This document shows positions 31,962 to 54,867 of a stretch of DNA of 64,000 nt, in pieces. The DNA is taken from NCBI GenBank assembly GCA_024345305.1, contig BRON01000022.1, forward strand, positions 186,001 to 250,000, given 5' to 3'. The stretch is from Mrakia gelida. Lineage: Eukaryota > Basidiomycota > Tremellomycetes > Cystofilobasidiales > Mrakiaceae. The notes beneath the pieces were generated by a model. It worked only from the letters and a program-made list of their open reading frames with translations, made no database searches and was not told the origin of the DNA. The position numbers and the translations under genes are program-made. Numbering within the stretch: the first letter of the stretch is position 1; every line of letters begins with the position of its first letter.

Positions 31962-32024
31962 TATGTACGCGACTTTTTTTTTTTTTTTTTTCTTGGTCTT
32001 CTCGAGCGCGTGCTCTTCTTAGTT

Positions 32025-35000
32025 GTTTCGATGGCTCCTTGGTTGTCGTCGTTCACTGGGATCGATTCGGTGTCGTATCCCAGTTCAGCGAGGATCCTGG
32101 CAACCCATCTGAAGTTCCGGCACCCTGCGAAGAGAGCGATGCACTCTGCTTCAGGAGAAGAGAGACTGATTGCCTTTTGGCGTCGACTCGCCCAGATGAC
32201 TGTAGATCGAAGGACCTTGACGACGAAGCCTGTTGTTGATCGTCTTGATTCCGTGTCTCCGGCGTAGTCGGAGCCGGTCCAGAGTTCGGCGACTGGAGCG
32301 TCCGAGTGTCCTCCAAGTTGGAGCGACGTATCTGCTGATCCTTGTAGGTATCGCATGACCTTCTTGACTGCTCCCCAATGGACCCTTCGTGGGTCTGAAC
32401 TGAATCGGGTGAGAACTCCGACGGCGAAGGCGATGTCCGGTCGAGTGCAGATTTGGAGGACATCAACGATCCCACCGCTTCGAGGTAGGGTACTCCGTCC
32501 AGCTTCTCTGATCCCGAATCCTCCGATTGGACCGACAGTTGCCTAAAGTCGTCCATCGGAACCTTGTTTGGTTTAGTGTCGACCATGTTGAATCGTTCGA
32601 GGACCGTTTGCACGTATCGTTTCTGGCTGAGGTCCATTGTCCCCGCCTTGCGGTCCCTCGTAACGTCGACTCCGAGGATGGTTCCTGGGTTGAGGTCTCC
32701 TCTGTCGTCGATGTTGAATTCCTTTTGGATCTCCGTCATGACCCACTCCAAGTCCTCCTTGTCTCCCGCGGCGACGAAGTCGTCAACGTACTGGACCAAC
32801 ATGATCCGTCGTCCCTTCCTATGCCCAATGTAGATGCAAGGGTCTGCTTCGAGTGGATGGAGATTCAGTTGAGTTTGAAAGAACTTTGAAGAATGATTGT
32901 AGAACGCGAGTGGTGATTGCTTGAGTCCGTATAGGGCCTTGAGGAGATGCGCCACGAGTTTCTTCTTGTCGGCTCCCTTTTGTTCGTACCCTGTTGGCTG
33001 TTCCATGAAGACCGTTTCCACTAGGTCTGCTGTGAGGAATGCCGTCTTGAAGTCTCCTTGGACTAGATCGAGATCCTCCGATGCTGCGATGGCGAGGACG
33101 ATCCTGAGTGAGTTCAGCTTTGATACCGGCGCGTACGTCTCGATGTAGTCGACTCCTTCTTGCTGACTGAATCCCTTGGCGACCCGTCTAGCTTTGAAGC
33201 GAGTAGTCCTCCCGTCGGCTCCTTTCTTGAGCGCGTAGACCCAGCGACCTCCGACCGTTTTTGATCCTGAGGGTAGCTCCGTGAGTTCAAAGACTCCGTT
33301 CCCTTCCATCGACACCATCTCTTCGTCCATCGCTTCCCTCCAGAAGTAGGCGTGCTCCGACGCCATGGCTTCTCCGTATGTATTTGGGACGGAGGGTGGT
33401 GGAAGATCCTCGAGTTTGGGTTGCGTCGCTTGAGCGTGTCCGGCGAAGTCCTCCGAAATGAAGTCGGTGATGTCGTAGTCCGTCTGGACAAATCTTGCCG
33501 AGTCTCCTGTTCCTGTGAATGGCTTCTTGTTCCGTTGACCTCGTCCGTAGCTCCCACTCGAATAGACAGCCGGTTCATCGATGATGGGCTCGTAAGTGTA
33601 GGAGTGCTTGACGCGTGATAGGTTGGGTTTCCTTGCCTCGGTCTCCCTGACCGGGTCTTGTTGGTTGGACTTGAGTAGGTGCTGTTCCTCTCCTTTGTCC
33701 TCCTCCAGTTCCATCTCTTCTTCTTCCTCCTCCTTGTGGTCCTCCTCGATTCTGGCTCGTCCCATTCCTGGTAATTCCACCGTCTGGTGGATTCCACGTG
33801 TTTCGTCGAAGATAACGTCCCGAGAATGAAGAATCGACCGCTTGGGATCTCCATGGACCTGAAGTCGATAGGCCTTCTTCCAGTTGAGATCGCCGTATCC
33901 GAGGAAGATGCACTTGATGCTCTTGGGTTGATGCTTGATCTTTTGAAGGTTGAGCGCGTAAGCGATAGCTCCGAACGTCCGCATTGCAGTGAGGTCGGGC
34001 TTCCTTTTGTAGTAGGCTTGGTAGGGGGTTTGAGAGTTGACTGAGGATGAGGGAATGCGGTTGATTGTGTATGTGGCGTAGTTCATGGCTTCCGCCCAGT
34101 AGGATCCGTCGAGGTCCCTCGCGTCTCGTAGCGCGCAGGTGATCTTCTCCTCGATGGTTCGCATTCCTCGTTCGGCCTTGCCGTTTTGTTGCGGTGTGCG
34201 TGGGATAGTCGTTTCCTTGGTGATTCCTTCGTCCCGGAGGTAGAACTCGTAGTCCTTCGACGTGTATTCCCCACCGTTGTCTGACCTGATCCGTTTGACG
34301 ACGTGATTGGTCCTTTTCTCCTCCCTTTTCCTCCAGGCGATGAATGTTGCCAGTGTTTCCGACTTCCTCTTCATTGCGAACGACCAGTGGTAGTTGCTGA
34401 AGTCGTCCCAGATCGTCATCATGTAACGCATTCCTTGAGCCGAGGCGATTGGCATCGGTCCGGCGAGATCCGTGTGGACGAGTTCGAGAGGTGAAGTGGT
34501 TTTGGTGGTGGAGGTGGGGAATGGAGTTCGATGTTGTTTCCCTTCGACGCAAGGTACACAGATCCTTTCCTTGAATCCGATGATGTCCTTTTTGGTGAAG
34601 GTTGGTAGGAGCTTCTGACGAGACAACTCCTCCATGGCGGAGATAGAAGCGTGACCGAGCCGGCGATGAAGGACCTCGATCTTGTCGACTCCTGTTGCCG
34701 CGAGTGCGACGTCTTCTCCTCCTGAGCCGACTCCCTTGTAGTCGCTCACGTCCAGCATGTAGAGGTTCTTCGACACCTCTCTTCCCTCCATGAACAGCGA
34801 TCCGTCTCGAAGGAACTGGCACCGCTTGTTGGTTTGGGTTGTCCCCTTGCTGGGGAACCTGGTCTCGACTCCTTTGTTACCGAGTTGACCAATACTGATG
34901 AGGTTGCTGAACCCTGGGATGTGGTATACGTCGGAGATGGTGAAGGCCTTCCTTGATCCTTTCACGGTGGTCTGGAGGTGGATGGAGCCGATGCCGAGGA

Positions 35001-36072
35001 TCTGTACGATTGATCCGTTGGCCATCGTGACCGTTCCGTTGTGCGCCTTGTATGTTACGAAGCGTTCCCGGTCCCCGACGATGTGGTTTGATGCTCCACT
35101 ATCGGCGATGTATCCATGCTTGGTTTGAGCAAAGAGCGCTTGAGCCGACGTCGCGATGTCGGATCCTGCTTCAAGACCGTAGTCTACGAGGTGCGCCTCT
35201 TCCCTATCCTTCCAGTTCCCCTTGTTCTCCTTCTTCCCCTTCCCGAACTTCCTTCCCTTTCCACCTTGTCCCTGCCCCGTGGGCTTTCCTCCATTCAACT
35301 CCCAGCACTCCGACTTGAAGTGTCCGACCTTGTTGCAGTGATGGCACTTGGCGGTCCTCTTGTCGACTAGGAGGGCTGTTTCCTTCGACGATGAAGTACC
35401 GGTCGGTTTGAGGGACTCGTGAGTCCTTACGTGGATGAGGAGGGATGTGGCGACGGCGGTTGGGTTGAGTTCTTGTTTTGATTCTTGTGCCTGGAGCGTT
35501 TGGTGTTGAATGAATTGTTCGAGTGATGCGGGTAATCCACTGAGGAAGAACATTGAGCTCATCCTGTCTGGGATGTTGAGGCCGAGAGCTGACATGTCGT
35601 CGATGATCCTTTGGAATTCGTCGATGTACTCCTGTACTGGTTCTCCCTCCTCCATCTTGAGGTCCCTCATCCTTCGGATGGCCATGACCTCTCCCGCTCC
35701 TCCTTCCACCTTGTGAGTCTTCCTCAGAAGATCCCATGCCTCCTTTGCGTGTTTGCAGTTCCGGATCCGAGGTAGTTCTCGGTCGCTGACCGCCATTTGA
35801 ATCCTGTGGAGCGCGAACTCGTCCATATGGTCCCATTCTTCGATGTCCTTGACGTTGTTCTGCTGCTTCACGACCTCTTGTCCGGTGGTGTCCTTTTCCA
35901 TAATTTCCGGGGTGAGGTTGGGCCTGGTTTTCGTACCGAGGACGACGGGCTTGATTCCTGCTTCTCCAAAGGCGATCTCCATCCTTACTGACCACGTCTC
36001 GTAGTTGGTACCATCGAGAGCGGTGAGCTTGAACAGCTTGTGATCTAGCTTCTTGGAGTAGTTGCTTGACAT
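32025..36072 (-). mobile_element. Ty1/copia retrotransposon Gag-Pol, 3'-truncated
   Basis: One frame of over 1,200 codons starts at 36072 (MSSNYSKKLDHKLFKLTALD). Order: Gag with zinc knuckle CHHCNKVGHFKSEC; protease YIADSGASNHIVGD; pre-integrase VLHRRLGHAS; integrase HTDLAGPMP, IRSDNGGEY and TPQQNGKAERGM; reverse transcriptase RFKARRVAKGFSQQEGVDY, YGLKQSP and LVQYVDDFVAAG; then RNase H (TGSDYAGDTESRRSTTGFVV, LSSPEAECIAL). Integrase before RT is the copia order. A single base is missing at about 32463 (SLMYLQICTRPDIAF is read by restoring it). The RNase H ends at NQGAIETTK near 32025, about 60-100 residues short. No 3' LTR follows; instead an 18-base A run (- strand, about 31973-31990) and then the transposase tail. 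Otherwise the frame is clean, so this insertion is much younger than the surrounding pseudogenes. Confidence 0.9.
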
Positions 36073-36121
36073 GACGAAGGATTGTTGCTTAGCGGGTGGT
36101 GGCGAACTGGTGCTGATAACG

Positions 36122-36288
36122 TGTTGTTGGGTCGTCCACTTGAGCTTAGGGATGTCTGCAGGATGTGGTTCAAAGCTTGATGTATAAAGCTAGCTACTCG
36201 AAAGGTTTATATACTATGGAAATGGTCACGTGATCTGAAGGTAGCTTACAAAGCTGTTTAGAAGAATGGTTACTAACAAGGGGACTGT
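36122..36288 (-). repeat. 5' LTR of the copia element, cut by telomere repeats
   Basis: Matches the solo LTR at 16640-16805. The inner end (CCCAACA on the - strand) is followed by a likely primer-binding region, TTATCAGCACCAGTTCG. The outer end stops at GGGGACTG (36288), where the solo copy continues about 20 bases further; here TTAGGG repeats start at once. Confidence 0.85.
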
Positions 36289-39200
36289 TAGGGTTAGGGT
36301 TCTATAGTCATATCAATACGCAGAGAGCAAGGTCAGAGAGCAAAAGAGAGAGAGAGGAAAGCAAGAAACAAACAGGGGTAGGGCTCTTGAGAGTAAAGGT
36401 AGAACAGAAGAGAAAGCCAAAAGACACGAGAACTAGAAGTGCCAAAAGTGAGAGCGAGCCCTAAGAAGAGTAACCGAGATTCTACTAAGCATTCCCGACC
36501 ACTGAGAGGGTTAGGGTTCTATAGTCATATCAATACGCAGAGAGCAAGGTCAGAGAGCAAAAGAGAGAGAGAGGAAAGCAAGAAACAAACAGGGGTAGGG
36601 CTCTTGAGAGTAAAGGTAGAACAGAAGAGAAAGCCAAAAGACACGAGAACTAGAAGTGCCAAAAGTGAGAGCGAGCCCTAAGAAGAGTAACCGAGATTCT
36701 ACTAAGCATTCCCGACCACTGAGAGTTAGGGTTAGGGTTCTATAGTCATATCAATACGCAGAGAGGGTTAGGGTTAGGGTTCTATAGTCATATCAATACG
36801 CAGGGTTAGGGTTAGGGTTCTATAGTCATATCAATACGCAGAGAGCAAGGTCAGAGAGCAAAAGAGAGAGAGAGGAAAGCAAGAAACAAACAGGGGTAGG
36901 GCTCTTGAGAGTAAAGGTAGAACAGAAGAGAAAGCCAAAAGACACGAGAACTAGAAGTGCCAAAAGTGAGAGCGAGCCCTAAGAAGAGTAACCGAGATTC
37001 TACTAAGCATTCCCGACCACTGAGAGTCCTTCATCACCTCCCTCCACTCCTTCATTGCCTTCAACGTCCCATCCTCCAAACCACCTCCGATCGACACCAC
37101 CAGCGGAACAAAGGGGACCGCGACGCGTCCTGCGTACTTGGCCACCTTCTTCCTCATCGCCACCTCCAGTAGGGTTAGGGTTCTATAGTCATATCAATAC
37201 GTTAGGGTTAGAGGGTTAGGGTTAGGGTTCTATAGTCATATCAATACGCAGAGAGCAAGGTCAGAGAGCAAAAGAGAGAGAGAGGAAAGCAAGAAACAAA
37301 CAGGGGTAGGGCTCTTGAGAGTTAGGGTTCTATAGTCATATCAATACGCAGAGAGCAAGGTCAGAGAGCAAAAGAGAGAGAGAGGAAAGCAAGAAACAAA
37401 CAGGGGTAGGGCTCTTGAGAGTAAAGGTAGAACAGAAGAGAAAGCCAAAAGACACGAGAACTAGAAGTGCCAAAAGTGAGAGCGAGCCCTAAGAAGAGTA
37501 ACCGAGATTCTACTAAGCATTCCCGACCACTGAGAGTCCTTCATCACCTCCCTCCACTCCTTCATTGCCTTCAACGTCCCATCCTCCAAACCACCTCCGA
37601 TCGACACCACCAGCGGAACAAAGGGGACCGCGACGCGTCCTGCGTACTTGGCCACCTTCTTCCTCATCGCCACCTCCAGTACAGCCTGCATTCCTCGTGT
37701 CGCCTCCCTCCACTCGGACGCGTCCCGCTCTGGGGAGAGGTTGCGGGTCGCTCGCTCTGCTTCCACAGTCGCCAAAGAGATGATGGTGAGATCGAACATT
37801 TAGGGTTAGGGTTCTATAGTCATATCAATACGCAGAGAGCAAGGTCAGAGAGCAAAAGAGAGAGAGAGGAAAGCAAGAAACAAACAGGGGTAGGGCTCTT
37901 GAGAGTAAAGGTAGAACAGAAGAGAAAGCCAAAAGACACGAGAACTAGAAGTGCCAAAAGTGAGAGCGAGCCCTAAGAAGAGTAACCGAGATTCTACTAA
38001 GCATTCCCGACCACTGAGAGTCCTTCATCACCTCCCTCCACTCCTTCATTTAGGGTTAGGGTTCTATAGTCATATCAATACGCAGAGAGCAAGGTCAGAG
38101 AGCAAAAGAGAGAGAGAGGAAAGCAAGAAACAAACAGGGGTAGGGCTCTTGAGAGTAAAGGTAGAACAGAAGAGAAAGCCAAAAGACACGAGAACTAGAA
38201 GTGCCAAAAGTGAGAGCGAGCCCTAAGAAGAGTAACCGAGATTTAGAGTTAGGGTTAGGGTTCTATAGTCATATCAATACGCAGAGAGCAAGGTCAGAGA
38301 GCAAAAGAGAGAGAGAGGAAAGCAAGAAACAAACAGGGGTAGGGCTCTTGAGAGTAAAGGTAGAACAGAAGAGAAAGCCAAAAGACACGAGAACTAGAAG
38401 TGCCAAAAGTGAGAGCGAGCCCTAAGAAGAGTAACCGAGATTCTACTAAGCATTCCCGACCACTGAGAGTCCTTCATCACCTCCCTCCACTCCTTCAGGG
38501 TTAGGGTTAGGGTTCTATAGTCATATCAATACGCAGAGAGCAAGGTCAGAGAGCAAAAGAGAGAGAGAGGAAAGCAAGAAACAAACAGGGGTAGGGCTCT
38601 TGAGAGTAAAGGTAGAACAGAAGAGAAAGCCAAAAGACACGAGAACTAGAAGTGCCAAAAGTGAGAGCGAGCCCTAAGAAGAGTAACCGAGATTCTACTA
38701 AGCATTCCCGACCACTGAGAGTCCTTCATCACCTCCCTCCACTCCTTCATTGCCTTCAACGTCCCATCCTCCAAACCACCTCCGATCGACACCACCAGCG
38801 GAACAAAGGGGACCGCGACGCGTCCTGCGTACTTGGCCACCTTCTTCCTCATCGCCACCTCCAGTACAGCCTGCATTCCTCGTGTCGCCATTTAGGGTTA
38901 GGGTTCTATAGTCATATCAATACGCAGAGAGCAAGGTCAGAGAGCAAAAGAGAGAGAGAGGAAAGCAAGAAACAAACAGGGGTAGGGCTCTTGAGAGTAA
39001 AGGTAGAACAGAAGAGAAAGCCAAAAGACACGAGAACTAGAAGTGCCAAAAGTGAGAGCGAGCCCTAAGAAGAGGGTTAGGGTTAGGGTTCTATAGTCAT
39101 ATCAATACGCAGAGAGCAAGGTCAGAGAGCAAAAGAGAGAGAGAGGAAAGCAAGAAACAAACAGGGGTAGGGCTCTTGAGAGTAAAGGTAGAACAGAAGA

Positions 39201-42200
39201 GAAAGCCAAAAGACACGAGAACTAGAAGTGCCAAAAGTGAGAGCGAGCCCTAAGAAGAGTAACCGAGATTCTACTAAGCATTCCCGACCACTGAGAGTCC
39301 TTCATCACCTCCCTCCACTCCTTCAGGTTAGGGTTAGGGTTCTATAGTCATATCAATACGCAGAGAGCAAGGTCAGAGAGCAAAAGAGAGAGAGAGGAAA
39401 GCAAGAAACAAACAGGGGTAGGGCTCTTGAGAGTAAAGGTAGAACAGAAGAGAAAGCCAAAAGACACGAGAACTAGAAGTGCCAAAAGTGAGAGCGAGCC
39501 CTAAGAAGAGTAACCGAGATTCTACTAAGCATTCCCGACCACTGAGAGTCCTTCATCACCTCCCTCCACTCCTTCATTGCCTTCAACGTCCCATCCTCCA
39601 AACCACCTCCGGGTTAGGGTTAGGGTTCTATAGTCATATCAATACGCAGAGAGCAAGGTCAGAGAGCAAAAGAGAGAGAGAGGAAAGCAAGAAACAAACA
39701 GGGGTAGGGCTCTTGAGAGTAAAGGTAGAACAGAAGAGAAAGCCAAAAGACACGAGAACTAGAAGTGCCAAAAGTGAGAGCGAGCCCTAAGAAGAGTAAC
39801 CGAGATTCTACTAAGCATTCCCGACCACTGAGAGTCCTTCATCACCTCCCTCCACTCCTTCATTGCCTTCAACGTCCCATCCTCCAAACCACCTCCGATC
39901 GACACCACCAGCGGAACAAAGGGGACCGCGACGCGTCCTGCGTACTTGGCCACCTTCTTCCTCATCGCCACCTCCAGTACAGCCTGCATTCCTCGTGTCG
40001 CCTCCCTCCACTCGGACGCGTCCCGCTCTGGGGAGAGGTTGCGGGTCGCTCGCTCTGCTTCCACAGTCGCCAAAGAGATGATGGTGAGATCGAACATTTA
40101 GGGTTAGGGTTCTATAGTCATATCAATACGCAGAGAGCAAGGTCAGAGAGCAAAAGAGAGAGAGAGGAAAGCAAGAAACAAACAGGGGTAGGGCTCTTGA
40201 GAGTAAAGGTAGAACAGAAGAGAAAGCCAAAAGACACGAGAACTAGAAGTGCCAAAAGTGAGAGCGAGCCCTAAGAAGAGTAACCGAGATTCTACTAAGC
40301 ATTCCCGACCACTGAGAGTCCTTCATCACCTCCCTCCACTCCTTCATTTAGGGTTAGGGTTCTATAGTCATATCAATACGCAGAGAGCAAGGTCAGAGAG
40401 CAAAAGAGAGAGAGAGGAAAGCAAGAAACAAACAGGGGTTAGGGTTAGGGTTCGGTTAGGGTTAGGGTTCTATAGTCATATCAATACGCAGAGAGCAAGG
40501 TCAGAGAGCAAAAGAGAGAGAGAGGAAAGCAAGAAACAAACAGGGGTAGGGCTCTTGAGAGTAAAGGTAGAACAGAAGAGAAAGCCAAAAGACACGAGAA
40601 CTAGAAGTGCCAAAAGTGAGAGCGAGCCCTAAGAAGAGTAACCGAGATTTAGAGTTAGGGTTAGGGTTCTATAGTCATATCAATACGCAGAGAGCAAGGT
40701 CAGAGAGCAAAAGAGAGAGAGAGGAAAGCAAGAAACAAACAGGGGTAGGGCTCTTGAGAGTAAAGGTAGAACAGAAGAGAAAGCCAAAAGACACGAGAAC
40801 TAGAAGTGCCAAAAGTGAGAGCGAGCCCTAAGAAGAGTAACCGAGATTCTACTAAGCATTTAGGGTTAGGGTTCTATAGTCATATCAATACGCAGAGAGC
40901 AAGGTCAGAGAGCAAAAGAGAGAGAGAGGAAAGCAAGAAACAAACAGGGGTAGGGCTCTTGAGAGTAAAGGTAGAACAGAAGAGAAAGCCAAAAGACACG
41001 AGAACTAGAAGTGCCAAAAGTGAGAGCGAGCCCTAAGAAGAGTAACCGAGATTCTACTAAGCATTCCCGACCACTGAGAGTCCTTCATCACCTCCCTCCA
41101 CTCCTTCATTGCCTTCAACGTCCCATCCTCCAAACCACCTCCGATCGACACCACCAGCGGAACAAAGGGGACCGCGACGCGTCCTGCGTACTTGGCCACC
41201 TTCTTCCTCATCGCCACCTCCAGTACAGCCTGCATTCCTCGTGGTTAGGGTTAGGGTTAGAGGTTAGGGTTAGGGTTCTATAGTCATATCAATACGCAGA
41301 GAGCAAGGTCAGAGAGCAAAAGAGAGAGAGAGGAAAGCAAGAAACAAACAGGGGTAGGGCTCTTGAGAGTAAAGGTAGAACAGAAGAGAAAGCCAAAAGA
41401 CACGAGAACTAGAAGTGCCAAAAGTGAGAGCGAGCCCTAAGAAGAGTAACCGAGATTCTACTAAGCATTCCCGACCACTGAGAGTCCTTCATCACCTCCC
41501 TCCACTCCTTCATTGCCTTCAACGTCCCATCCTCCAAACCACCTCCGATCGACACCACCAGCGGAACAAAGGGGACCGCGACGCGTCCTGCGTACTTGGC
41601 CACCTTCTTCCTCATCGCCACCTCCAGTACAGCCTGCATTCCTCGTGGTTAGGGTTAGGGTTAGAGGTTAGGGTTAGGGTTCTATAGTCATATCAATACG
41701 GGGGTTAGGGTTAGGGTTCTATAGTCATATCAATACGCAGAGAGCAAGGTCAGAGAGCAAAAGAGAGAGAGAGGAAAGCAAGAAACAAACAGGGGTAGGG
41801 CTCTTGAGAGTAAAGGTAGAACAGAAGAGAAAGCCAAAAGACACGAGAACTAGAAGTGCCAAAAGTGAGAGCGAGCCCTAAGAAGAGTAACCGAGATTCT
41901 ACTAAGCATTCCCGACCACTGAGAGTCCTTCATCACCTCCCTCCACTCCTTCATTGCCTTCAACGTCCCATCCTCCAAACCACCTCCGATCGACACCACC
42001 AGCGGAACAAAGGGGACCGCGACGCGTCCTGCGTACTTGGCCACCTTCTTCCTCATCGCCACCTCCAGTACAGCCTGCATTCCTCGTGTCGCCTCCCTCC
42101 ACTCGGACGCGTCCCGCTCTGGGGAGAGGTTGCGGGTCGCTCGCTCTGCTTCCACAGTCGCCAAAGAGATGATGGTGAGATCGAACATTTAGGGTTAGGG

Positions 42201-43130
42201 TTCTATAGTCATATCAATACGCAGAGAGCAAGGTCAGAGAGCAAAAGAGAGAGAGAGGAAAGCAAGAAACAAACAGGGGTAGGGCTCTTGAGAGTAAAGG
42301 TAGAACAGAAGAGAAAGCCAAAAGACACGAGAACTAGAAGTGCCAAAAGTGAGAGGTTAGGGTTAGGGTTAGGGTTCTATAGTCATATCAATACGCAGAG
42401 AGCAAGGTCAGAGAGCAAAAGAGAGAGAGAGGAAAGCAAGAAACAAACAGGGGTAGGGCTCTTGAGAGTAAAGGTAGAACAGAAGAGAAAGCCAAAAGAC
42501 ACGAGAACTAGAAGTGCCAAAAGTGAGAGCGAGCCCTAAGAAGAGTAACCGAGATTTAGGGTTAGGGTTAGGGTTCTATAGTCATATCAATACGCAGAGA
42601 GCAAGGTCAGAGAGCAAAAGAGAGAGAGAGGAAAGCAAGAAACAAACAGGGGTAGGGCTCTTGAGAGTAAAGGTAGGGTTAGGGTTCTATAGTCATATCA
42701 ATACGTTTAGGGTTAGGGTTAGAAGGGTTAGGGTTAGAGGGTTAGGGTTAGGGTTCTATAGTCATATCAATACGCAGAGAGCAAGGTCAGAGAGCAAAAG
42801 AGAGAGAGAGGAAAGCAAGAAACAAACAGGGGTAGGGCTCTTGAGAGTAAAGGTAGAACAGAAGAGAAAGCCAAAAGACACGAGAACTAGAAGTGCCAAA
42901 AGTGAGAGCGAGCCCTAAGAAGAGTAACCGAGATTCTACTAAGCATTCCCGACCACTGAGAGTCCTTCATCACCTCCCTCCACTCCTTCATTGCCTTCAA
43001 CGTCCCATCCTCCAAACCACCTCCGATCGACACCACCAGCGGAACAAAGGGGACCGCGACGCGTCCTGCGTACTTGGCCACCTTCTTCCTCATCGCCACC
43101 TCCAGTACAGCCTGCATTCCTCGTGTCGCC
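36289..43130 (-). mobile_element. tandem array of 5'-truncated telomeric retroelement copies separated by TTAGGG repeats
   Basis: About 29 copies, all in one orientation. On the - strand each copy runs from a variable 5' cut, through part of an open frame and an AG/CT-rich 3' UTR, to the same 3' end ATTGATATGACTATAGAA, immediately followed by CCCTAACCCTAA. On the + strand the junction is always GGGTTAGGGTTCTATAG. Copy lengths range from about 20 bases (36780, 41682) to about 480 (37329, 39627, 41718). Between copies lie one to four TTAGGG units, sometimes with short degenerate tracts (42710-42745). No poly(A) and no target-site duplications are visible. The polarity equals that of HeT-A/TART-type additions, where 3' ends face the centromere. 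Whether the parent is LINE-like or an endonuclease-deficient Penelope-like element cannot be settled here because no RT core is present. Confidence 0.92.
39759..40097 (-). pseudogene. C-terminal coding fragment of the telomeric retroelement (one of three longest copies)
   Basis: The longest copies keep 112 codons ending in a stop at 39759; identical ones lie at 37461-37799 and 41850-42188. The text reads ERDASEWREATRGMQAVLEV, AMRKKVAKYAGRVAVPFVPL, VVSIGGGLEDGTLKAMKEWR and MLSRISVTLLRARSHFWHF. A 'VPFVxSxGG' stretch followed by a basic amphipathic end is something I associate with C-termini downstream of the reverse transcriptase in LINE-type proteins; this is recollection of style, not a search. 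The first Met is accidental: it sits at the truncation point, directly next to TTAGGG. The rest of the protein is nowhere in the window. Confidence 0.6.
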
Positions 43131-43414
43131 TAACGGGTATGCGCCCCGTTCCTGCCTCCAGGAACGGTCGATTCCGTGTAGTCGACTACCCGGATCCGGG
43201 TAGTCCGACCGTTCCAGCAGCCCTTTTTGGACTACCCGGACTTTGCGTCGCTTCGTTCTCCTTCCTCCTTCCTAACGGGTATGCGCCCCGTTCCTGCCTC
43301 CAGGAACGGTCGATTCCGTGTAGTCGACTACCCGGATCCGGGTAGTCCGACCGTTCCAGCAGCCCTTTTTGGACTACCCGGACTTTGCGTCGCTTCGTTC
43401 TCCTTCCTCCTTCC
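43131..43414 (+). repeat. palindrome-rich boundary block, tandem duplicate of 142 bases
   Basis: Two near-identical 142-base copies (43131-43272, 43273-43414), each starting TAACGGGTATGCG and ending in TTCTCCTTCCTCCTTCC. Each holds a hairpin with a 9-base stem (43146-43167 in the first), a perfect 22-base palindrome (43184-43205) and a half-palindrome GGACTACCCGGAC. One further copy starts the second helicase unit at 56575 and a diverged copy starts at 55310 just after telomere repeats. It marks the centromere-side edge of each subtelomeric unit. Confidence 0.85.
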
Positions 43415-45028
43415 ACCGAATCGCAAACGGGAAACACGACCAGCGAGATCTACCCATGAAGCACAATGTATCAGAAGCACAGCTCTCTAGAACAAAATCT
43501 GCATCGTCGACAGCGATTCTCCCGAGAGGTACCTCAAAACGAAGGAGAGGGTGAGCTCGAGCTGACTTCCGCGAGTTCTTTTCGGAGGAGCTCCATCCTC
43601 TCTTTAGCTGCACTGTATATTCAAGGCCGAGTTCCTGCTATGCGAAGAGCTAGGGCCGTTGATTAGTAGCTCTAGTATGTCCGGTATAAAGGGCTTAGCT
43701 CTAGAGTGAAGATTTGCCGACGTCTCGAGCTCGAAAGAAATGAGCTCAAGCTCACCTCCCAGCTCCTCCTCCTTTCTCCTATGCGAGTCTGAGCCTCGTG
43801 GTAGGAAAATTTGCTCGCTCGAAGCGGGAACGTGTTCTCTATACCCGGCCTCCTGACTAATCTGTTTTCAGATTTCGAGTTACTGCTAGAGTCGTTGCGC
43901 AGCGCCAGCGAACCTGTCGATGGAACTTGCCCTCTCGTTCGTTCAAGCTCAACCCCCATCTCCTCCCCCCTCCCCCTCCTCCCTCGCTTACCTCCTACAA
44001 CAGCAGCTGGACTCTTCTCGGGCCTCCTGCCTCTTTGGTACTATAGGATTGACCTGGGCGATGGGAGGGTGGTTTCATACATCGATGGATCTACAAAGCC
44101 GTGGACCGAAGGGGACGAGGTCCGAGTCAACCGCGTGTCTTCGACGAGAAGTTGCGGAGCTGCTCTCTCCCCCAACCACATCGACCTCTTCCCTTGACCA
44201 CTTCCTTCCCATTTCCCACTCCCTCTACCAACAACTTGTCAGCTCCTACGAGGGAGTAGCATCCCTCCCAAGGGCCCACTGGAGCTGTGCTTGAACGGCA
44301 GCCTTGGTGAGCTCCCTCGCCTTATCGCTTCCTCATCGCTTCCCTTTCCTCAACCCCTCCTCCTCTCGCAAAGGAAGGGAAGTCCTTTCTCTTGAGCTTC
44401 TATGTTGGGAGTGTATCCTCTGGGGTGCAAAGAACCCACTGAGAACGTGGATGTATGCTGGGAAGGTCTCTCGTTGGAAGGAGGAGGAGCAGGCTCCCTC
44501 CCTCATGACTCGGTCTTCCCCTCCTCCTTCCCTTCCCTCCTCCACGAGCGAGCTCAATGCTGACCCTCTTTCCTCCCCTTCCCTCCCACCAGGAACTTCT
44601 CCCCCACTCCTCCTCTACTCCTAGCCATCCAACGGATCCGATCCAATTCTACAACCCTCTTCAGCTTCCTTCGAAAGCGACCTCAGCCAAACCTCCTTCC
44701 CCTTTGGAACCCTCGCTGAACGAGCTCTCGAGAGACTTTCTCGTGGGACTCAAGTGAGTCTTTCGCTTTCAGTTAGAGGTAGGGGAGGTGGGATGAGGTG
44801 TCACCTGCCTTTGCAGAAGGAAGGAGAAGGAAGGAGGAGTTGCGAGCTCGAGCTGACCATCGTTCTTCCCTCTACCTCGCTCGCTCTCCCTCCTTCCCCT
44901 TGCACTCTCAGGTTCTTTCTTCAGTACCGTAAGTTGCCCTCGCATACCTCAATCTTCTCATACCATCCACCCTCCGCTTGGTTCTGTTCTGACTTTCGAT
45001 TGACCTTCTCTCGTTCGTGCTCGAGCAG
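43415..45028 (+). other. 5' region of helicase unit 1
   Basis: The segment contains a repeat (about 43667-44030, beginning TAGCTCTAGTATGTCC) that recurs at 51647, 55706 and 56969. It is followed by sequence with patchy coding character: LQQQLDSSRASCLFGTIGL around 43990, and PIQFYNPLQLPSKATSAKP, NELSRDFLVGLK around 44640-44756, then a small exon FFLQY at 44913-44929. These could be 5' exons of the helicase gene, since homologous proteins are long, but the frame they give (HELPMLK...) runs to a stop at about 45089 instead of into the zinc finger. The same holds in the second copy (56717-58330). Confidence 0.45.
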
Positions 45029-48000
45029 ATGAGCTTCCCATGCTCAAGAGCGATCTGCCATGCCCTCTCACCCTTCTCCACCCTTGCTAAACTCACCGAG
45101 CATGTGAAGGATGTTCATCAAGCTGAAATTCGTCTTGCTGGAGGTCTCAAAGGTGCGCTTGCACACATCTTCTCCGTGTAGGTTCCGTTCAAGCCCAACA
45201 CTCATCCCGTTCCTCCCTTCCCCTCGTTCTCCCTCCCCCATCCCTCTCAGTGCCGCGTGGAACCAACGGATCGTTCTCCTGCCCTCGACCTCACTCGGAA
45301 CCTCACTTTTCCCGTACCCCAAACACGTTTCATAAGCACTGGAAGATCTGCACCCTCACCGAACCTCTCCACCCGCTCTTCCCTTCTCCTCTCGTTCACT
45401 CTCCCTCTCCCTCTCCCCAACCCGACGCTCCCCCTCCGCCAACACAGGATCAACAGGAGGAGGAGGAGAACGCTCACCTAGGGGATGGGGAAGGGTTTGG
45501 TTTTGGGATGGACGAGGGGGAGGGAGAGGGAGAGACCGAGCGAGGTGGTGGCGAGGGAGTTGGAGGGAGTGCGAGTGGGTCGAGCTCGAGTGGGACGAGG
45601 AAGGGGAAGGAACGCGAGGTTGTTGTTGAGAGTGAGGGTGTTGGTGGGGAGGATGGGAACCTTTCGGAAGATGGAGGAGTCGGTGCTGCATGTGGGATGG
45701 ATGGAGTCGAGGGCGAGGTCTCTTCGGACGATGGTGAGTCTCTCTAGGTCACTCTTGTTTGCTCTCTCGCTCGAGAGTATGGACTCGTGCTGATCCTCAA
45801 ACCCTTCTTCCCTCCATCAGGCTCAACAGCATCGGTTCTTAGAGACGACAGGGCTGGTAACAACAGCCTCAGGGGACTCACCATCGGAGGATCTTTCGTT
45901 CGAGACGCGTTCTGGAAGCTACCTCATCTCGCCAGTTCGTTCTTCTTCTCCTCCCTCCTCCTTGCTCTCCCCCTTCCTTCCCGACCCTGACCTTTCTCCT
46001 CTTCCTCCTTTCAGCCACTCCCGCTCTCAATATCGCCTCTCTCGCTGTCAACACTCGCATCGGCCTCGTCATCTCAACCCACGAGGACTCCCACGGAGGA
46101 GGTGTTCGTCCCTCTCGCATCGGACACCATCTTTCACTCCACACTCCGTCCCTCTCCTCCTCCCAGCGGAAGACTCTCACCCGAGATGCCACCCACCTCC
46201 TCAACCTCTCTTCCTCTCTCGACACCTCCGACTACGCTTCCCTCGCCAACAACCAAGACGCGATCGGCCTCCTCCTCTCGACGAGTTCAGGCTCGACCTT
46301 CCCTATGGTCGAGGGACTCGCTGTGAGGTCAGGAATAGGGTGTGGGAGCTGTGGAGCTGTCTACAAGGATGGCGACTCCCTCCGAAGCCACCGTCACAAG
46401 AGGCACGGAGGAACAAACCTCGCTCCCACTCCCGCCTACTTCCAACGGCTCTTCCCCGACGCTCACCTCCCCGCCTTCGCCGTTCCTCCTCCCTCCCACG
46501 ACTCCACCAACTTTGTTCCTCCTCCCCCTCCCAAGGTCCCACGATCGGATCCCCTCTCGGCATCAGCAGCCTTCCTTCTCAAGCAGCAGAACGAGATACT
46601 CTCCTCCCTTCCCATCCCCAGCGACAAGCTCGACAATTCCCTCTACCATCAACCAGTCTACCAGAACCCTCTCGGCTACGGCTCCTTCATCCGACCCTAC
46701 CCTCTCGCCATCCTTCGCTCAGCCATCTCCCCCGCCCACAACTACCGATCCTCGGACAAGACTCGAATCGAAGACCGCGACCCTCTGCGAAACGTCTGGG
46801 TCCACGTTCAGGATCTCGCCTTAGGGGTTCGGAAGTACGGGACGAACCCGAGCGAGTTCGCTGTGGCGAGGAAGATCGGGATGGGGGATGGGTCGGTGCA
46901 GATCTCGGAGGACATGGTCGAGGAAGAGCGAGGAGGGAAGGGACCGACGAGGATCTTCAAGCCGCGGCTTGCGGATTCGACCCTCAAACGATACAGCAGG
47001 GACGCAAGCTCGCTCATCCTCTTCGCCCTCAGGGTCACGCCAACGGTCTACCGAAACCCCATCCCCATCCCTCAGGGCGAGCTCGCACCTCCTCCAATCA
47101 TCTCCCCTCCTCCTTCCTCCTCCTCCTTCTCCACCTCCATCGACCTTCCCTCCTTGCACACCACCGAGCGGATGGTACTCGCAGCCAACACCCTCCGTCA
47201 GATCCTCCAGAGGGACGTCCTCACCCAGCCGAACGGGGTCTTCGGAGGAGAAGGAAGAGGAGGAGTCGAGGAGTCGAAGGAGGTTCAGGACGCCCTTCTC
47301 CAGTTCCTCCTTGCGATCTACTCCCCTCGATACTCATCCACTCCTCCTCGGGGCCAGATGGTCCTAGATCAGTTCCTAATCTGCCTTTCCCTCGCCGCCG
47401 GAGGAGGCTTTCGGGAGATCGGATCGTTCGGACCTCAGCTCGCGTCCTGCGAGTTCTTCGTTCGACTCGTCGTCTACCGCCTAGTGCTGGACGAGATTGG
47501 ATGGGGAGAGGTTAGGGAGTTGGATGAAGCTGAGGTTGGAGCAGTGCCAGTGTCGAGAGGGTAAGTCGGTTGTCTTGATCGCTTTGCGGTTTCGAAACGC
47601 GTCGCTCACCTCTCTCTCTTTCTTCTTTCTCAGTCTCGACTCGCCGCTCTTCGAACTCGTCACAGCTCACCCCAACGGAGCTCAAGTCACACCCTTCGTC
47701 GTCCTTCGAGCTACTCGCTATCCCATCTCCCACGCCATCACCGCTGCTGGACCCGTCGTCTCCATCCAACCCCTCCACGACCCAGTCGAAGGCCACCTCC
47801 TCCCTCTCCTCTCCTACAACCGCTTCATCTCCCTCACCGCTATTGCCGACGCAGCCAAGGGAGCCATCGCATCAGCTGCTTCCTTGATCAAGACCCTCAC
47901 CTTCTCGGCAGACCTCTCAGCAGTTGGCCGAACGATGGAAGGAGTGACGGTCGGAGGAGTTGCGGGAGAGGTTGGAGGATCGATCTTCACGGATCCATCA

Positions 48001-51000
48001 AACTGCATCAAGCTCGGGATACCTCGGAACCAACAGGCTCTCCTCCTCTCCCTCTCTCTCTCCAACTCCAAGCTCTGGATCTCAAACCCCTCGGATCCTC
48101 TCAAACCCCAGCTCAACCTTCCTCACGCCCGAGCCTTCCTTCACTCCCTAGCCGCCGCGAAGCTCAACCTCCTCGTCGCCATCCACCTCTCCTCCCCTGG
48201 AGGTCGAGCTTCGGAACTCGTTACTCAGCAGCTCACCCGAACGGTCGACCACGGCTCCTCTCTCTTCATCACCTCCAACCGACTCGCCGTTCGTACGGAG
48301 GTCAACAAGACAGGAACGAAGACCATCCATCGCTTCGTGTCGCCGACCCTCGTGCCTCTCGTCATCCAGCTCTTCGGAGTCGTACAACCCTTCGCTCTCT
48401 ACCTTCTCTCCCTCCTCCACTCTCTCAGCCCTCTGGACAACAACCTCGACGTTCAGACCACCTTCAGGACGTTCCTTTGGACGAACGGTGTCGGGAAGCA
48501 GATCGTCGCCGCCGACCTCAGATCCCACCTCAAGCTCGCCTTCGTCTTGTCAGGCTCGTCGTCGGGAGTCGGGCTCCAAACGGTTCGACACGCCGAAGTC
48601 TTCATCAGTCGGATCATCCTCCCTCTCCTCGGATCAGACGCCAACGGACTCCTCGTCGCTCTGGAGACTCAGTCGAGCCAACGAGGCCACTCGCTCAAGA
48701 CGGACGAGGCCGCTTACGGAAACACCGACTCCAGTGGTGGGATTCGGGACTTGGCTGCTTTTGGAGACGCGACGAATGCGATGAGGGTTGTGAGCCTGTA
48801 TCAACTCGCGTTGGGAGTGGATCCTGTGAGTCTTTGCCTCCATGTTCGTTCTCGATCCTCTCGCGACACCTCGTTCTGACCAACCCTCCTCTTCCCCCTC
48901 CTCCGCTACGCTACGCAGGTTCTCAAGATCGACCGCTTGCCCGACAGGCTGGATCTGTTTCTTGGGCGTAGCTCTCATCCGTCGGTGAGTCCTTCCTCCG
49001 TTCTCTCTTCTGGCGACGTCCCTCGCCTGACTGACGCGTCTCTCTTCCTCTCCTTCTCTTCAGCTCTCCTCCAAGCGTCCCTCCTCCTCTTCTCTCTCTT
49101 CCTCCCAACCTCTCTTCAAACGTCCCACACCAGCACCACCCTCCCCTCCTCCAGTCTCAGGGTACGACGACGAAGGATCCGAGCCGATGGAGCTAAGTCG
49201 AGACGACGCGTCAGGAGGAGGAGACAGCGCGAGAGACCCAGTCTTGGAGGAGGAGAGGAGTTCGATTCTTTCATCAAGTGCGGTGGAGGTATCCTCAAGA
49301 AGCCGGACTCCTCTCGATCTCCAAGCTCTCACGGACGGTGTCGACTTCGACGACGACATGGACGACTTCGACGGATCCAGTCCCCCTCCTCCTCCTCCTC
49401 CTCCGGCTCCTCGCATTCCTCCTGAACCCTCCCCTCTCCCCGTTCCTCCTCCCTACTCCCAAGCGGATGTCATCACCAGCCTTCTTCGGGAGTGGACCGG
49501 CAACCCATCAGCGGAGCTCTACGAGAACCAGCTCGAAGCTGCTGCCAAGATCATCCGCGGAGGAACCGATTACCTTCTCAGCAGCCCCGTTGGGTCGGGC
49601 AAGACCTTCCTCTCCCTCCTTCGAGCTCTCCTCGACCGCAGTCACCCTACTGGTCGTCTCGTCGTCTTCATAACACCCTTCCGCTCCATCCTCGCTACGC
49701 TTCACGCTCGATGTCGGAACAGCAGTCTCGACGTCCACACCCACCCCTTCCCTCCCGAAACCCCTCTCGTCAGCCTCCGAGGTGTCCTCCTCATCTCGAT
49801 CGAGCAGCTAGGCAACAAGCAGCTTCGAGAGGACCTCGCTTCCCTCGGCACCATAGGGAAGGTCCTCCAGTTCGTCGGGGATGAGGCTCACACCTGGGCG
49901 ACTCAGTCGGATTGGAGGCCGTCGATGGGCTACGTCTCCCTCGCTCGACTCGCGCGAGCTCCCTTCCTCCTTCTCTCCGGCAGCTGGACTGAGGGAGCAC
50001 GGAGACACGCCGGAACACTCCTTCACTCAACCCTCACCGAGCTCAACTTCCCTCTTCGTCGTCCTGGAGTCACGTTCCACGTTGTGAAGCTGGACTACAG
50101 CGACGACGTCTTCAAGACGATGATGGATACTTTCGGGAACGGTCACCTCTCTGCTCCTAGAGCTCCAGTCATCATCTTTGGATTCACCAAGAAGGAGCTG
50201 GACGCGCTACGAGGAAGGCTGGTGGAGGAGGCGGAGAGGAAGGGTGTCGAGGTGAGGACGGAGGTCTACTACGCGGTGACGGGTGTGGAGGAGACAAGGA
50301 AGATGGATGGAACGAGCAGGGATTGGGAAGCCGGAAGGATCGACTACCTGTTCTGCACAACAGCGGGGATTCAAGCTCTGGACTGTCCGGTGAGTCAAAC
50401 ACAACCCCCCTTGCGTCGCGTCGGGTCAGGACGAGAACAACAACCGAACTCTCTTCCTTCCTCTTCCAGCAATGCAACCTCGTCATCTTCCTTCCTCACC
50501 CAAAAGGATGGACAGTCTCCGAGCGCGTTCAGGGAGGAGGTCGAGGTCGAGACTGGGAGACCGTCGTCTGGGACCTCCAAAAGAAGAAGTCGCTGCTTTT
50601 CGTCGACCACCCAAACGGGTTCGACCCTCGCTTCCGCTCTCCAAACAGCTGCATCGCCAAAGCACTGGAGGAGCAGCTCAACGATTTCTCGTCGGGAGAC
50701 TGTGGGCTCTGTACAGAATGTCGTCGTCGTCGCGTTGCCCCTCCTCAATCTCCCTCCCTCCCCTCCCACCGAACCACCAACCTCCTCCCCTCAGCCATCT
50801 CTCCTCCCCTCATCAGCTCTCTCTTCCCTACCATCCCTCACTCCTCCGAGATCCCCGAAGCCTACCTCCAATCCCGTCAGCTCCATACTCAAGCAAACAT
50901 CCTCCACGACGAACTTGCCCATCTCCTCCGAACCCTCGACTCCCTCTGCTCGTCGTGCATCCTCCTTCACCCAACCACTCAACTCTCTCCCAACGCCACC

Positions 51001-51557
51001 TCACTCCACAAGTACGGATGCCCCAGCAAGAAGAAAGAGTACGTTTTCGATTCTGTCTGCCTCTCCTTTTTGACCGCGACGCGTTCTGACGTCGCTTTCT
51101 TCTCTTCTCTCGCAGGTGCTCGTACTGTACTGGCTGCAACTGGAGGAGTCTCGAGACATGCGCAGTCCTTACCGCTCAACGCTTTACCTACTCCAACTGC
51201 TGTTTCGGATGCCTCTTCCCTATCTCGCTGCACGAGGAGGCGGCGGAGGGTGGGATGGGAGGAGGGTGTCCGTTCAGAGCTGCGAAGATGGTTGTTCCTC
51301 TTTGCATGCAGCTGTTCCGGGATCGGAGTTGGAGGGAGAGGGCTATCGAGGAGGGGAGGATTGGATCAGACTGGGGGTGGGTGTCTGACGGAGAAGGGAT
51401 ACTGCTGGGGACGAGGGAATATTACAAGTGGAAGATCACGAAGGAGAAGGACGTGGAGTTCTCGTTCTGGCTAGGTTTGCTCTCCCCTACACTTCCTTTC
51501 ACCAACGCTGCTCTTCTCCTCCTCTGGTTCTACAAGACTGTCTCTCGCCCTACGTAG
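45029..51557 (+). CDS. telomere-linked RecQ-type helicase with C2H2 zinc fingers, copy 1
   Basis: Nine exons join in phase: 45029-45152, 45251-45733, 45821-45934, 46015-47560, 47634-48825, 48919-48984, 49064-50389, 50470-51038, 51116-51557; about 1,953 residues. N-terminus: finger-like CHALSPFSTLAKLTEHVKDVH and CPRPHSEPHFSRTPNTFHKH, an acidic Gly/Glu/Ser-rich linker, then finger CGSCGAVYKDGDSLRSHRHK near residue 350, as seen in fungal telomere-associated helicases. The helicase core lies near residues 1320-1650: LYENQLEAAAKII, SSPVGSGKTF (Walker A), GDEAH (motif II), LLLSGSW (motif III), YLFCTTAGIQALDCP. The C-terminus has Cys-rich CGLCTECRRRR and CSYCTGCNW. Like yeast Y' and Ustilago telomere-linked helicases it sits in subtelomeric repeats and is transcribed towards the chromosome end; a role in recombination-based telomere upkeep is inferred. 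The start is conservative. No stop or frameshift found. Confidence 0.88.
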
Positions 51558-51639
51558 TAACTCGTGTCCTCCTCTTTCTGTTCCGCTTTCGTTTCTTCTC
51601 CGGTTCTCTTTGATGTCTCTTGTCTGAAGTTGGAGTCGT

Positions 51640-52545
51640 TCGTACGTAGCTCTAGTATGTCCCGTAAAGAGGGCTTAGCTCTAGAGTGAAGATTTGCCGA
51701 CGTCTCGAGGTTGAAAGGTATGAGCTCAAGCTCACCTCTGAGCTCCTTCCCCTCTCTCCTATGCGAGTCTGAGCCTCGTGGTAGGAAAAGTTGCTCGCTT
51801 GAAGGGGGAACGGGTTCTCTATACCCGGCCTCCTGGCTAATCTGTTTTCAGATTTCGAGTTACTGCTAGAGTCGTTGCGCAGCGGCAGCGAACCTGTCGA
51901 TGGAAGGGCCTTCTCGTTCGTTCAAGCTCAACCCCCATCTTCCCTCGCCCTCCGCTCTATACATACGCTTCCCCCTTCCCCCTCCTTCTCCATTATGAGT
52001 CTATGGTAGTATAGGACCAACCCTATCCACTTTTTATCCTTCGCCAGGGCTGGATGGAGGAGAAAATGAGCTCGATCAATGTGAGCTCCACCTCCACATC
52101 CTCCCCTTCCTTCCCTCCATCTTCTCTCCTTCCGTTCTCCTCACCTCTTGCTCGGATCGCAATGGGACTTCGGGGGTATAGTAGGGCAGCTAGGGTGCCT
52201 AGGTGGAAGGTCTCAGATTTCGAGGGATGTATACGGTTGAGGCTCCTCGCTCATGCAGTCTTGTTGAGCTTGACTCTCCTTCCTCCCATGCATCCGATGC
52301 TGCTGAGACTCTCGTACTCACTCTATCTTCTCATTCTCTCTTTCCTACCACTCTAGTATACCTCCTCTTCCATCGCGAAACACTCCCACTACCCCTCTTG
52401 CTCCACCTCTCCCTCCCTCGACCTCCCCACTCCATGCGCTGGCAGCTCGACCTTTCTCCTTCCTTTCCTTTGTCGAAGCTGTCGAGACGAGTTCTTGCTC
52501 CCTTTCCTCCCTTCTGGCGAATTCATACGGCTTATATATAGTGGG
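51640..52545 (+). repeat. tail block of helicase unit 1
   Basis: Begins with the TAGCTCTAGTATGTCC repeat seen upstream of the helicase (43667) and continues through CTGGATGGAGGAGAAAATGA to CCCTTTCCTCCCTTCTGG. The whole block recurs with modest divergence at 55706-56574. No gene recognised; hydrophobic frames (LLSLTLLPPMHPMLL) occur in both copies but come from pyrimidine-rich DNA. Confidence 0.75.
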
Positions 52546-52689
52546 CCCATAGGTGGAGAAGTAGAGGGATGCTGTAGGAGTGTTGGAAGGCCTCTCTCGG
52601 TCGTCGAGTCGGCTTGCGTTGAGCTCACCTCTCCTCCCCTTCCCTCCATCTCGACCTTGCCTCCCTTCGACGTTCGTCAGTTCTTCCGT

Positions 52690-54640
52690 GGCACTGCTAG
52701 ATGACCTACCTATGATCTCGTATTGCTTCGCTTACTCTCTGGAGATGTTCGGTGTCGCTCTAGCTGCTTTCGTTGAGGAGTTGGGAGTGCTCGGAAGTGG
52801 GTGCGAGATGGTGGACGCGCTCTTCGACGGCTACTAGAACATGAACGGGCGCACCTGTATACTCGTGAGTATATGCGATCAAAAGGGAATCAAAAGCCTG
52901 TTTGATCCATCTATGACCCGAGGTGATCTACATCAGATGGAAGCGATCGATCTAGGACTTCTCCTTCCAGTCGCGTCCTCCCTTCTTCCAGCCAAGTTCG
53001 ACTTGCTCAAATCTTCTCTGAGCTAATCGGAACCAATCCAGATCGTCTCCAGTAGTCCTGACGGTTCTCCCAATATGTTCGGTACCGCTCCAGCTGCTCT
53101 GGGTCCGAAGTTAAAAGTGTTCGCAAGCGGATACGAGAGGGTGGACACGCCGTTTGACGGCTACTAAGACATGATTGAGACCACCTCTATACTCGTAGGT
53201 ATATGCGATCGAAAGGGAATTGAAATTCGGTTTCAACTATGAATCACTCGAGGTGATCTATACGAGATGGAAGCGATCAATTCGGGACTTCTCCTTCCAG
53301 TCACGTCCTCCCTTCTTCCAGCCAAGTTCGACTTGCTCAAATCTTCTCTGAGCTGATCGAAACCAATTCGGATCATCTCTAGTAGTCTTGACGGTTCTCC
53401 CAATTTATTCGGTGCCGCTCCAGATGCTCTGGGTCCGAAGTTAAAAGTGTTCGTAAGTAGGTGCGAGATGGTGGACGCGCTCTTCAACGGCTACTAGAAC
53501 ATGAACGGGCGCACCTGTATACTCGTGGGTATATGCGATCAAAAGGGAATTAAAAGCTGGTTCGATCTATGTATGACGCCAGGTGGTCTATACGAGATGG
53601 AAGCGATCGATTCGGGACTTCTCCTTCCAGTCACGTCCTCCCCACTGCCAGCCAACTCCGACTCGCTCAAATCTTCTCTGAGCTGATCGAAACCAATTCG
53701 GATCATCTCTAGTAGTCTTGACGGTTCTCCCAATTTATTCGGTGCCGCTCCAGATGCTCTGGGTCCGAAGTTAAAAGTGTTCGTAAGTAGGTGCGAGATG
53801 GTGGACGCGCTCTTCAACGGCTACTAGAACATGAACGGGCGCACCTGTATACTCGCGGGCATACGCGATCAAAAGGGAACTCAAATTCGGTTTCATCTAT
53901 GAATCACTCGAGATGATCTACACCAGATGGAACAGATCAACTTAGGACTTCTCATTCCAGTCGCGTCTTCTCCCCTCCCAGCCAAATCCGACTCGCTCAA
54001 ATCTTCTGTGAGCCGGTTGATACCAGTCCAAATCATCTCTAGTAGTCTTGACGGTTCTGTCAATATGTTCGGTGTCGCTCTAGCTGCTTTGTTGAGGAGT
54101 TGGGAGTGCTTGCGAATGGATGTAAGATGGTGGACGCGCTCTTCGACAGCTGCTAGAACATGAACGGGCGCACCCGTATACTCGTGGGTATATGTGATCG
54201 AAAGGGAATTTAAATTCGGTTTCAACTATGAATCACTCGAGGTGATCTATACGAGATGGAAGAAGTTGTTTCGTGATCCCTTGTTCATGTCACGTCCTCT
54301 CCCCTCTTGTGCCAGTTCGACTCACTCAAATTTTCTCTCAGCTGGTCGAAACCAACGCAGATCATCTCAAGTGCCTTTGAGGGTTCTCTCAATATGTTTG
54401 ATGCCACTCCAGCTGCGTGGGGCCCGAACTGGGGGTGCTCGCGAGGAGATGCGAAAGGATGGACATGCTCTTCACCGGCTAGGAGAACACGAACGAAACC
54501 ACCACTATAGTCGTGGGTATATGCGATCGAAAGGGAATTCAAATTCGGTTTCAACTTTGAATCACTCGAGGTGATCTATACGAGATGAAAGGGATCGTCT
54601 CATGACTCTTTGTTCCAGTCACGTCCTTCCTTTTGATGAA
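52690..54640 (+). repeat. about six degenerate tandem repeats of 330 bases
   Basis: Unit starts at about 52838, 53166, 53497, 53827, 54157 and 54483, spaced 326-331 bases, with a partial unit before the first. Each opens with a form of GAACATGAACGGGCGCACC, then TATACTCG, GAGATGGAAGCGATC, CTCCTTCCAGTC and TTGACGGTTCTC. Units 2 and 3 share about 145 identical bases (53354-53500 and 53685-53830); the last units are the most diverged. Each contains short frames with stops; no gene. Confidence 0.85.
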
Positions 54641-54867
54641 GCACCCTGACCTGCTCAAGTTGCCACTGATCTCCTTTCCAGCAATGAATACAGTCTTGGA
54701 AAGTGAAAACAACTAGCTGAAACCGTCTATGAGTCGTGGAGACAAGGGACAGCGCTGGGGTGTTGGGCTGGAGAAGGGAAGGAAAGGACGCGTTGGAAGA
54801 GTGTTGGGTACGACGGAAGGAGTGGGAGAGTAGTAGAGTAGTGAAAGTGAAGAAAAAGTAGAGAAAC
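54641..54867 (+). other. transition with falling cytosine content
   Basis: After the last tandem unit, + strand C becomes rarer step by step: common to 54720, about ten in the next 90 bases, one in the last 60. No gene seen. Confidence 0.6.

Follow-up and report, generated by a model that had tools for sequence, protein, structure and literature searches.

Truncated retrotransposon fragments alternate with telomere repeats in an array of Mrakia gelida

A contig of the basidiomycete Mrakia gelida carries an array of 29 copies of a long interspersed nuclear element (LINE), truncated at their 5' ends, set head to tail and separated by short telomere repeats. The same grammar of copy and spacer occurs at an interior site, where two unrelated sequences have been joined and one of them duplicated. 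The stretch analysed, called the window throughout, comprises 64,000 nucleotides (C22:186001-250000; C22 is contig BRON01000022.1 of assembly GCA_024345305.1), and the array is known from assembled sequence alone. The copies are assigned to the 3' part of a CNL1/MoTeR-type retrotransposon without long terminal repeats (LTRs), with an R2-like reverse transcriptase (RT) and a restriction-like endonuclease (REL); by these marks the element belongs with the telomere-associated LINEs CNL1, MoTeR and FoTeR, a kind already known. We consider it moderately probable that the array arose by serial addition of complementary DNA (cDNA) of such an element onto DNA 3' ends. The very short copies, the broken copia-type element at the base of the array and the pair of copies at the edge of a duplication are unusual features.

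Structure of the right array

All 29 copies (starts 36302 to 42756) lie on one strand, and each reads ...GGGTT followed by the 19-mer CTATAGTCATATCAATACG, which on the + strand is the antisense of the element's 3' end. The copies break off after 19 to 468 bases; none shows a mismatch to a 470-base reference (itself one of the copies), and poly(A) is absent from all 29. A preliminary description of this DNA had already recognised the array (given as 36289-43130), its about 29 copies on one strand, the lack of poly(A) and the common 3' end fused to TTAGGG, all of which are borne out (36288-43131). A search for the 25-mer at the element's 3' end, ending CCCTAA and allowing up to 2 mismatches, finds 47 occurrences in the genome at 0-1 mismatch and none in a reversed control.

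The other end of the copies is variable. There are 20 distinct 5' cut points among the 29 copies, and 24 distinct combinations of a cut with the spacer that follows it, in a varied, non-periodic order. The remaining five copies, best taken as duplicates made by recombination, each have the cut and spacer of another copy: the 468 unit is present three times, and the 237, 180 (TAGAG) and 370 units are each present twice. These counts correct the earlier claim that most copies have a different 5' cut, and the supposed "about 29 nested end-additions" shrink to 24 distinct units at most.

The 5' junctions tend to share bases with the telomere repeat. The distinct 5' junctions listed number 26 (23 right, 3 left), and 21 of them were scored; five were dropped for an irregular spacer start (ATTTAGGG twice, TAGAG, GGGGTTAGGG and TTTAGGG). 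At least one base is shared at 19 of the 21, against 23% under the null: none at two junctions, one at ten, two at seven, and three and four at one each. The mean of 1.48 shared bases compares with 0.30 for random cut points and phases, and 0 of 20,000 resamplings reach 1.48. Some cut points recur (19, 180 and 235), and the events are therefore not necessarily all independent.

The spacers are short. A perfect repeat of 9-22 bases adjoins each of the 29 right-array copies, and one of 12-19 bases each of the 12 copies of a second array described below; taken as a whole, a few spacers are composite and extend to as much as 50 bases. Two spacer types hold 1 or 6 element bases between two telomeric stretches, so that additions can stop almost at once. 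Four of the 24 distinct right-array spacers contain the variant TTAGA, five times in all; it always follows TTAG and hence lies in one repeat phase, and is absent from five tracts at four contig ends (71 TTAGGG units). Contig-end tracts contain CTAGGG and TTAGGGG variants, including those at the ends of C3 and C7 (L053, L054 and L055).

At its base, the array stands on a copia-type element whose truncated LTR runs into GTTAGGG, which looks like a healed or extended chromosome break. The earlier proposal that the + strand be read as a growing G-strand 3' end is supported, and the 1-4 shared bases at 19 of 21 junctions and this broken base fit the same interpretation.

Identity of the element

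Read on the − strand, the longest copies code for a C-terminus of 112 residues, which has 37 matches in the genome; the longest open frame over this tail is 222 residues. A degenerate copy on contig C6 (locus L048) has RT motifs upstream of an array-type tail, and its RT segment has 4 matches in its own genome, namely the degenerate copy itself and three short fragments. With stops read through, the C6 copy finds 114 homologues, the best being P0002 at 90% identity; others are from Filobasidium (52%), Wallemia (48%), Cryptococcus (43-45%) and, at lower identity, Aureobasidium and Rhynchosporium. The Cryptococcus homologues are recorded as "hypothetical protein", and we take them to be CNL1.

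P0002 (579 residues) ends in the tail encoded by the array, with 108 of 112 residues identical, and contains the motif C x2 C x7 H x3 C x9 RHE x20 E x8 RTD, a CCHC motif followed by a REL. The pattern searched for was widened slightly from one printed for MoTeR, FoTeR and CRE (PMC12857005); it occurs in 84 of 115 proteins (31 are without it; the set comprises the 114 homologues and one 75-residue fragment), and none of 2,300 shuffled controls has it. A 14-sequence profile compared with the PDB places R2 retrotransposon structures best and LINE-1 later. The R2-like RT is seen in the one degenerate copy and its close homologues, while the array copies hold the C-terminus only. In a midpoint-rooted RT tree of 90 sequences, P0002 falls within a clade of 63 that includes the Cryptococcus proteins (support 0.944). 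The preliminary description had left the element unassigned and perhaps undescribed, and had proposed a tree with MoTeR in it. Homologues, PDB profile, REL motif and tree now group the element with CNL1-type elements; the tree as built contains neither MoTeR nor FoTeR sequences, to which CNL1 has been linked in two papers (PMC12857005, PMC12810828).

A genome search for full-length copies had also been suggested. It was made with the tail and the RT segment, and no full-length autonomous copy was found in the assembly among the best candidates scored. Twenty high-scoring RVT_1 loci, many near contig ends, were rejected as a full-length source: none of them has a tail match closer than 10 kb, and the one of the 20 that was read, on C23, has RT and RNase H sequence read as Ty3/gypsy-type. 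The RVT_1 search missed the degenerate C6 copy. A scan of viral contigs for the element's 3' end found nothing, and literature searches, made other than by organism name, yielded no paper recognised as describing the element.

The second array and the contig ends

Near the other end of C22, a further 12 copies form a second array, oriented as a mirror image of the first (C22:9685-14276). Its copies fall into just 5 unit types and include a 2.44-kb block that is duplicated, so that the second array was mostly made by recombination. Its long units differ from those of the right array at 1-2 positions, and a unit cut at 375 and followed by ATTTAGGG is common to both arms. In each arm the outermost copy adjoins one and the same boundary of the helicase repeat, but it is cut at 376 on the right and at 380 on the left; given this 4-base difference, the two helicase junctions are similar, not identical. 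Taking contig ends as chromosome ends, the 3' end sits on telomere repeat and the 5' end points toward the chromosome end in 29/29 right and 12/12 left copies. A copia element (locus L039, C22:4809-9684) with LTRs 99.7% identical and a TCTCA duplication lies inside the outermost left-array copy and is a recent insertion into the left array.

Both arms are covered by a repeat with a helicase-like open reading frame (ORF), the left-arm stretch being 100% identical to that of the right arm over 4,620 bases. Its ORF has weak DEAD/ResIII matches, and homologues of one such ORF were not found at E <= 0.001 among 7,995 scored candidates; the label "TLH-like" is a putative one, drawn from position, these weak matches and analogy. 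A similar helicase boundary (CTAACGGTATGCG) stands directly after TTAGGG repeats at C1:4727, and the helicase repeat seems able to cap ends. The assembly measures 34.9 Mb in 25 contigs, of which C22 has 251,987 bases. TTAGGG repeats are found at several contig ends among the matches listed, with perfect runs of up to 144 bases near contig ends, and are absent from both C22 end stretches checked (the first 4,620 and last 1,987 bases).

Copies outside the arrays

The 3'-end 25-mer lies at 6 further places outside the arrays (0-1 mismatch). Perfect telomeric tails of 14 bases at C5, 16 at C15 and 17 at the inner copy of a pair in the window accompany it. This interior pair lies 60 kb inside the contig. 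It starts where a gene resembling C14:60168-60777 (80%) breaks off, and a segment also present elsewhere on C22 begins exactly at the end of the pair, with nothing between. The pair may be a former chromosome end that was later internalised, a "relic" in the sense used in a study of MoTeR (PMC7367193), or a direct patch of a double-strand break. An ORF at 5325-6152 (275 residues, F-box-like by eye) has its end replaced by element sequence at the duplication edge.

Five sites outside the arrays were scanned for target-site duplications, and no shared flank longer than 5 bases was found. Only three are simple sites for such a duplication (C5:14075, C15 and C23:19751), as the 5' flank at C24 is an inserted copia element and the window pair joins unrelated sequences; inside the repeats a duplication is not judgeable. 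The degenerate copies L048 (C6:1224603) and L050 (C23:40341) have about 34 bases of common flank, 91% identical, past the telomeric tail, which may represent an earlier 3' end or a shared target.

Table 1. Positions of the array and of other features in the window.
Feature	Position	Strand	Remarks
Array of 29 head-to-tail 5'-truncated LINE copies	36288..43131	- (sense strand)	On the + strand, a perfect TTAGGG repeat of 9-22 bases stands before each copy
Three longest copies, 468 bases each	41719..42186, 37330-37797, 39628-40095	-	Encode the C-terminal 112 residues of a retrotransposon protein
Outermost copy of the right array	42756..43131	-	Cut at base 376; joined to the helicase repeat at AACGGGTATGCG
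Copia-type LTR retrotransposon fragment beneath the right array	31994..36287	-	5' LTR without its first 60 bases, joined directly to GTTAGGG; 3' end also missing
Interior pair	5254..5376	-	GGGTT, 19-base copy, 16-17-base telomeric spacer, 83-base copy (1 mismatch); situated where two unrelated sequences meet
Duplicated segment	5377..8376	+	100% identical to C22:148859-151858 (3,000/3,000 bases tested)
Older degenerate fragment of the same element	20733..20979	+
Tandem subtelomeric repeat with helicase-like ORF (TLH-like)	43132..64000	+	ORF period of 13,302 bases; the contig begins and ends within the repeat

Origin of the array

In the reading that we favour, a chromosome would have broken within the copia LTR, and the exposed G-strand-like 3' end would have been extended repeatedly by short antisense cDNAs of element RNA. 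Each cDNA would start in about 1.5-3.5 telomere repeats and would mostly be joined to the previous end by 1-2 matching bases. In each round, either copying would have ceased before 500 bases or the end would have been cut back to less than that. Recombination would later have duplicated some units, and the end would finally have been covered by helicase repeats in both arms, probably through break-induced replication from another chromosome end. The spacers could come from a telomere-like tail of the RNA or from telomerase, or each of the two could have acted at different steps; the RNA tail is put slightly ahead. An RNA-borne tail is suggested by the narrow range of spacer lengths, the fixed phase, the tails at three non-array sites and the mostly 1-2 shared bases; likewise, telomeric tails away from the arrays, the two-copy addition at the interior site and the uniformly short repeats point to element RNA that may carry such a tail. 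R2 RT in vitro is described as jumping most readily when 1-2 bases match the new template, its untemplated additions being mostly A (PMC8857657).

Several observations weigh against serial addition. The outer copy of the interior pair has a tail of only 5-6 bases, and older copies (C23 twice, C24 and C6) have decayed tails with 2-8 perfect bases, so that the argument from carried tails rests on three sites. The array is not at a telomere in the assembly, stopping 22.9 kb short of the end of C22, and the activity of the element is something we infer, because no intact source copy was found there. TTAGA in one phase points to telomerase in some spacers, and nested insertion into the telomere repeats of earlier copies would give nearly the same pattern.

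A telomerase-capped cycle, as in the preliminary description and in the scheme for MoTeR, is a serious possibility, although it falls short of probable. A copy would enter the terminal telomere by target-primed reverse transcription, erosion would proceed into it, telomerase would heal the end from a 1-4-base seed, and the next copy would insert into the new repeats. The genome has a telomerase gene (PF12009 match at C8), and the five TTAGA in 4 of 24 right-array spacers, always after TTAG, fit this enzyme; telomerase copying one base past its template would yield TTAGA. Telomere healing in Magnaporthe offers a match on two counts: seeds of 1-4 bases served for 19 of 24 de novo telomeres, and breakage of long interstitial tracts would leave short ones (PMC7367193). 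However, the perfect repeat adjoining a copy is 9-22 bases in 41/41 array copies versus up to 144 near contig ends, the contig-end tracts (71 TTAGGG units) have CTAGGG and TTAGGGG variants and no TTAGA, and short tails occur also at sites away from the arrays.

Nested insertion, in which an endonuclease specific for telomere repeats cuts the tails of earlier copies and later copies enter the array anywhere, seems unlikely. It would account for the 3' junction phase, fixed in 41/41 array copies, and CNL1 provides a precedent by reportedly inserting into copies of itself (PMC12810828). However, the base of the array is a broken LTR and not a telomeric target, and a tail split by a later insertion should give shorter spacers unless it is duplicated.

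That a few founder units were mostly multiplied by unequal exchange or break-induced replication is quite improbable for the whole. The 20 right-array cut points need about as many separate 5' ends, for which recombination is insufficient alone, even though it suits the left array (12 copies, 5 unit types, a duplicated 2.44-kb block), the 5/29 right copies that repeat units and the 375 unit with its ATTTAGGG in both arms. An assembly artefact is very improbable indeed: the region is repetitive and the contig ends in helicase repeats without telomeres, but the unit order is varied and non-periodic, one left-array copy is interrupted by a copia element that inserted with a TCTCA duplication, and the same grammar occurs at the interior site.

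Serial addition could be taken a step further, to the doubtful proposal that an R2-type LINE RT extends any free DNA 3' end, whether at a telomere or at a break, by serial jumps between RNAs ending in 2-3 telomere repeats. It would thereby lay telomere-like caps without telomerase, and would sometimes stitch the end into another locus and duplicate it (window 5254-5377). For asking whether telomere-associated LINEs use a telomerase seed or an RNA tail to join one end to the next, the 24 distinct units of the array and the interior pair form a compact record. That the interior pair stands where a 100% identical duplication begins suggests a part for such elements in the repair and rearrangement of broken chromosomes away from telomeres.

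Comparison with known systems

HeT-A, TART and TAHRE stand in for a missing telomerase, whereas a PF12009 telomerase gene is present here. SART and TRAS have an AP-type endonuclease and poly(A), in contrast to the lack of poly(A) here and the REL motif in the homologues; the PF14529 profile has 0 matches in the genome (PF03372 was not searched). For Penelope-like elements (Coprina and Athena), the ranking of R2 and then LINE-1 as the profile's best structures speaks against a relationship, a comparison made through the profile and not with a Penelope sequence directly.

R2 is the closest PDB relative, and its 1-2-base match at template jumps and its mostly A additions resemble many junctions here (PMC8857657). 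However, the present element is known from its sequence, and, according to the same source, jumping is perhaps unnecessary in vivo (PMC8857657).

FoTeR of Fusarium oxysporum is similar in REL motif type, in orientation, in having telomeric repeats on the 3' side and in adjoining telomere-linked helicases (PMC12857005). FoTeRs are reported as undetected at non-telomeric loci, whereas decayed or short copies are found here in interior sequence too. MoTeR1 and MoTeR2 of Magnaporthe oryzae likewise have the 5' end toward the chromosome end (PMC12857005), and share interstitial telomere tracts, truncated copies, internalised relics and retrotransposon insertions into arrays (PMC7367193); one MoTeR array of 18 copies has repeated truncation points (PMC7367193). 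MoTeR tracts reach up to 18 repeats with TTTGGG variants, whereas at most 22 perfect bases adjoin a copy here, and the printed MoTeR motif is C-x2-C-x6-H, with x7 here.

For CNL1 of Cryptococcus, the proteins taken as CNL1 show 43-45% identity across the RT region used as query and share with the present element the spacing C-x2-C-x7-H-x3-C-x9-RH (3 shown: P0062, P0064 and P0065). CNL1 reporter insertions have 0-13-base duplications (PMC12810828), whereas none longer than 5 bases is seen here at the few sites scanned. Unlike CNL1, the arrays here consist of copies from 19 to about 490 bases, none of them full-length, and a broken copia LTR forms the base of the right array. As in the present arrays, CNL1 forms telomere-flanked subtelomeric arrays with 5'-truncated insertions, and it inserts into itself (PMC12810828).

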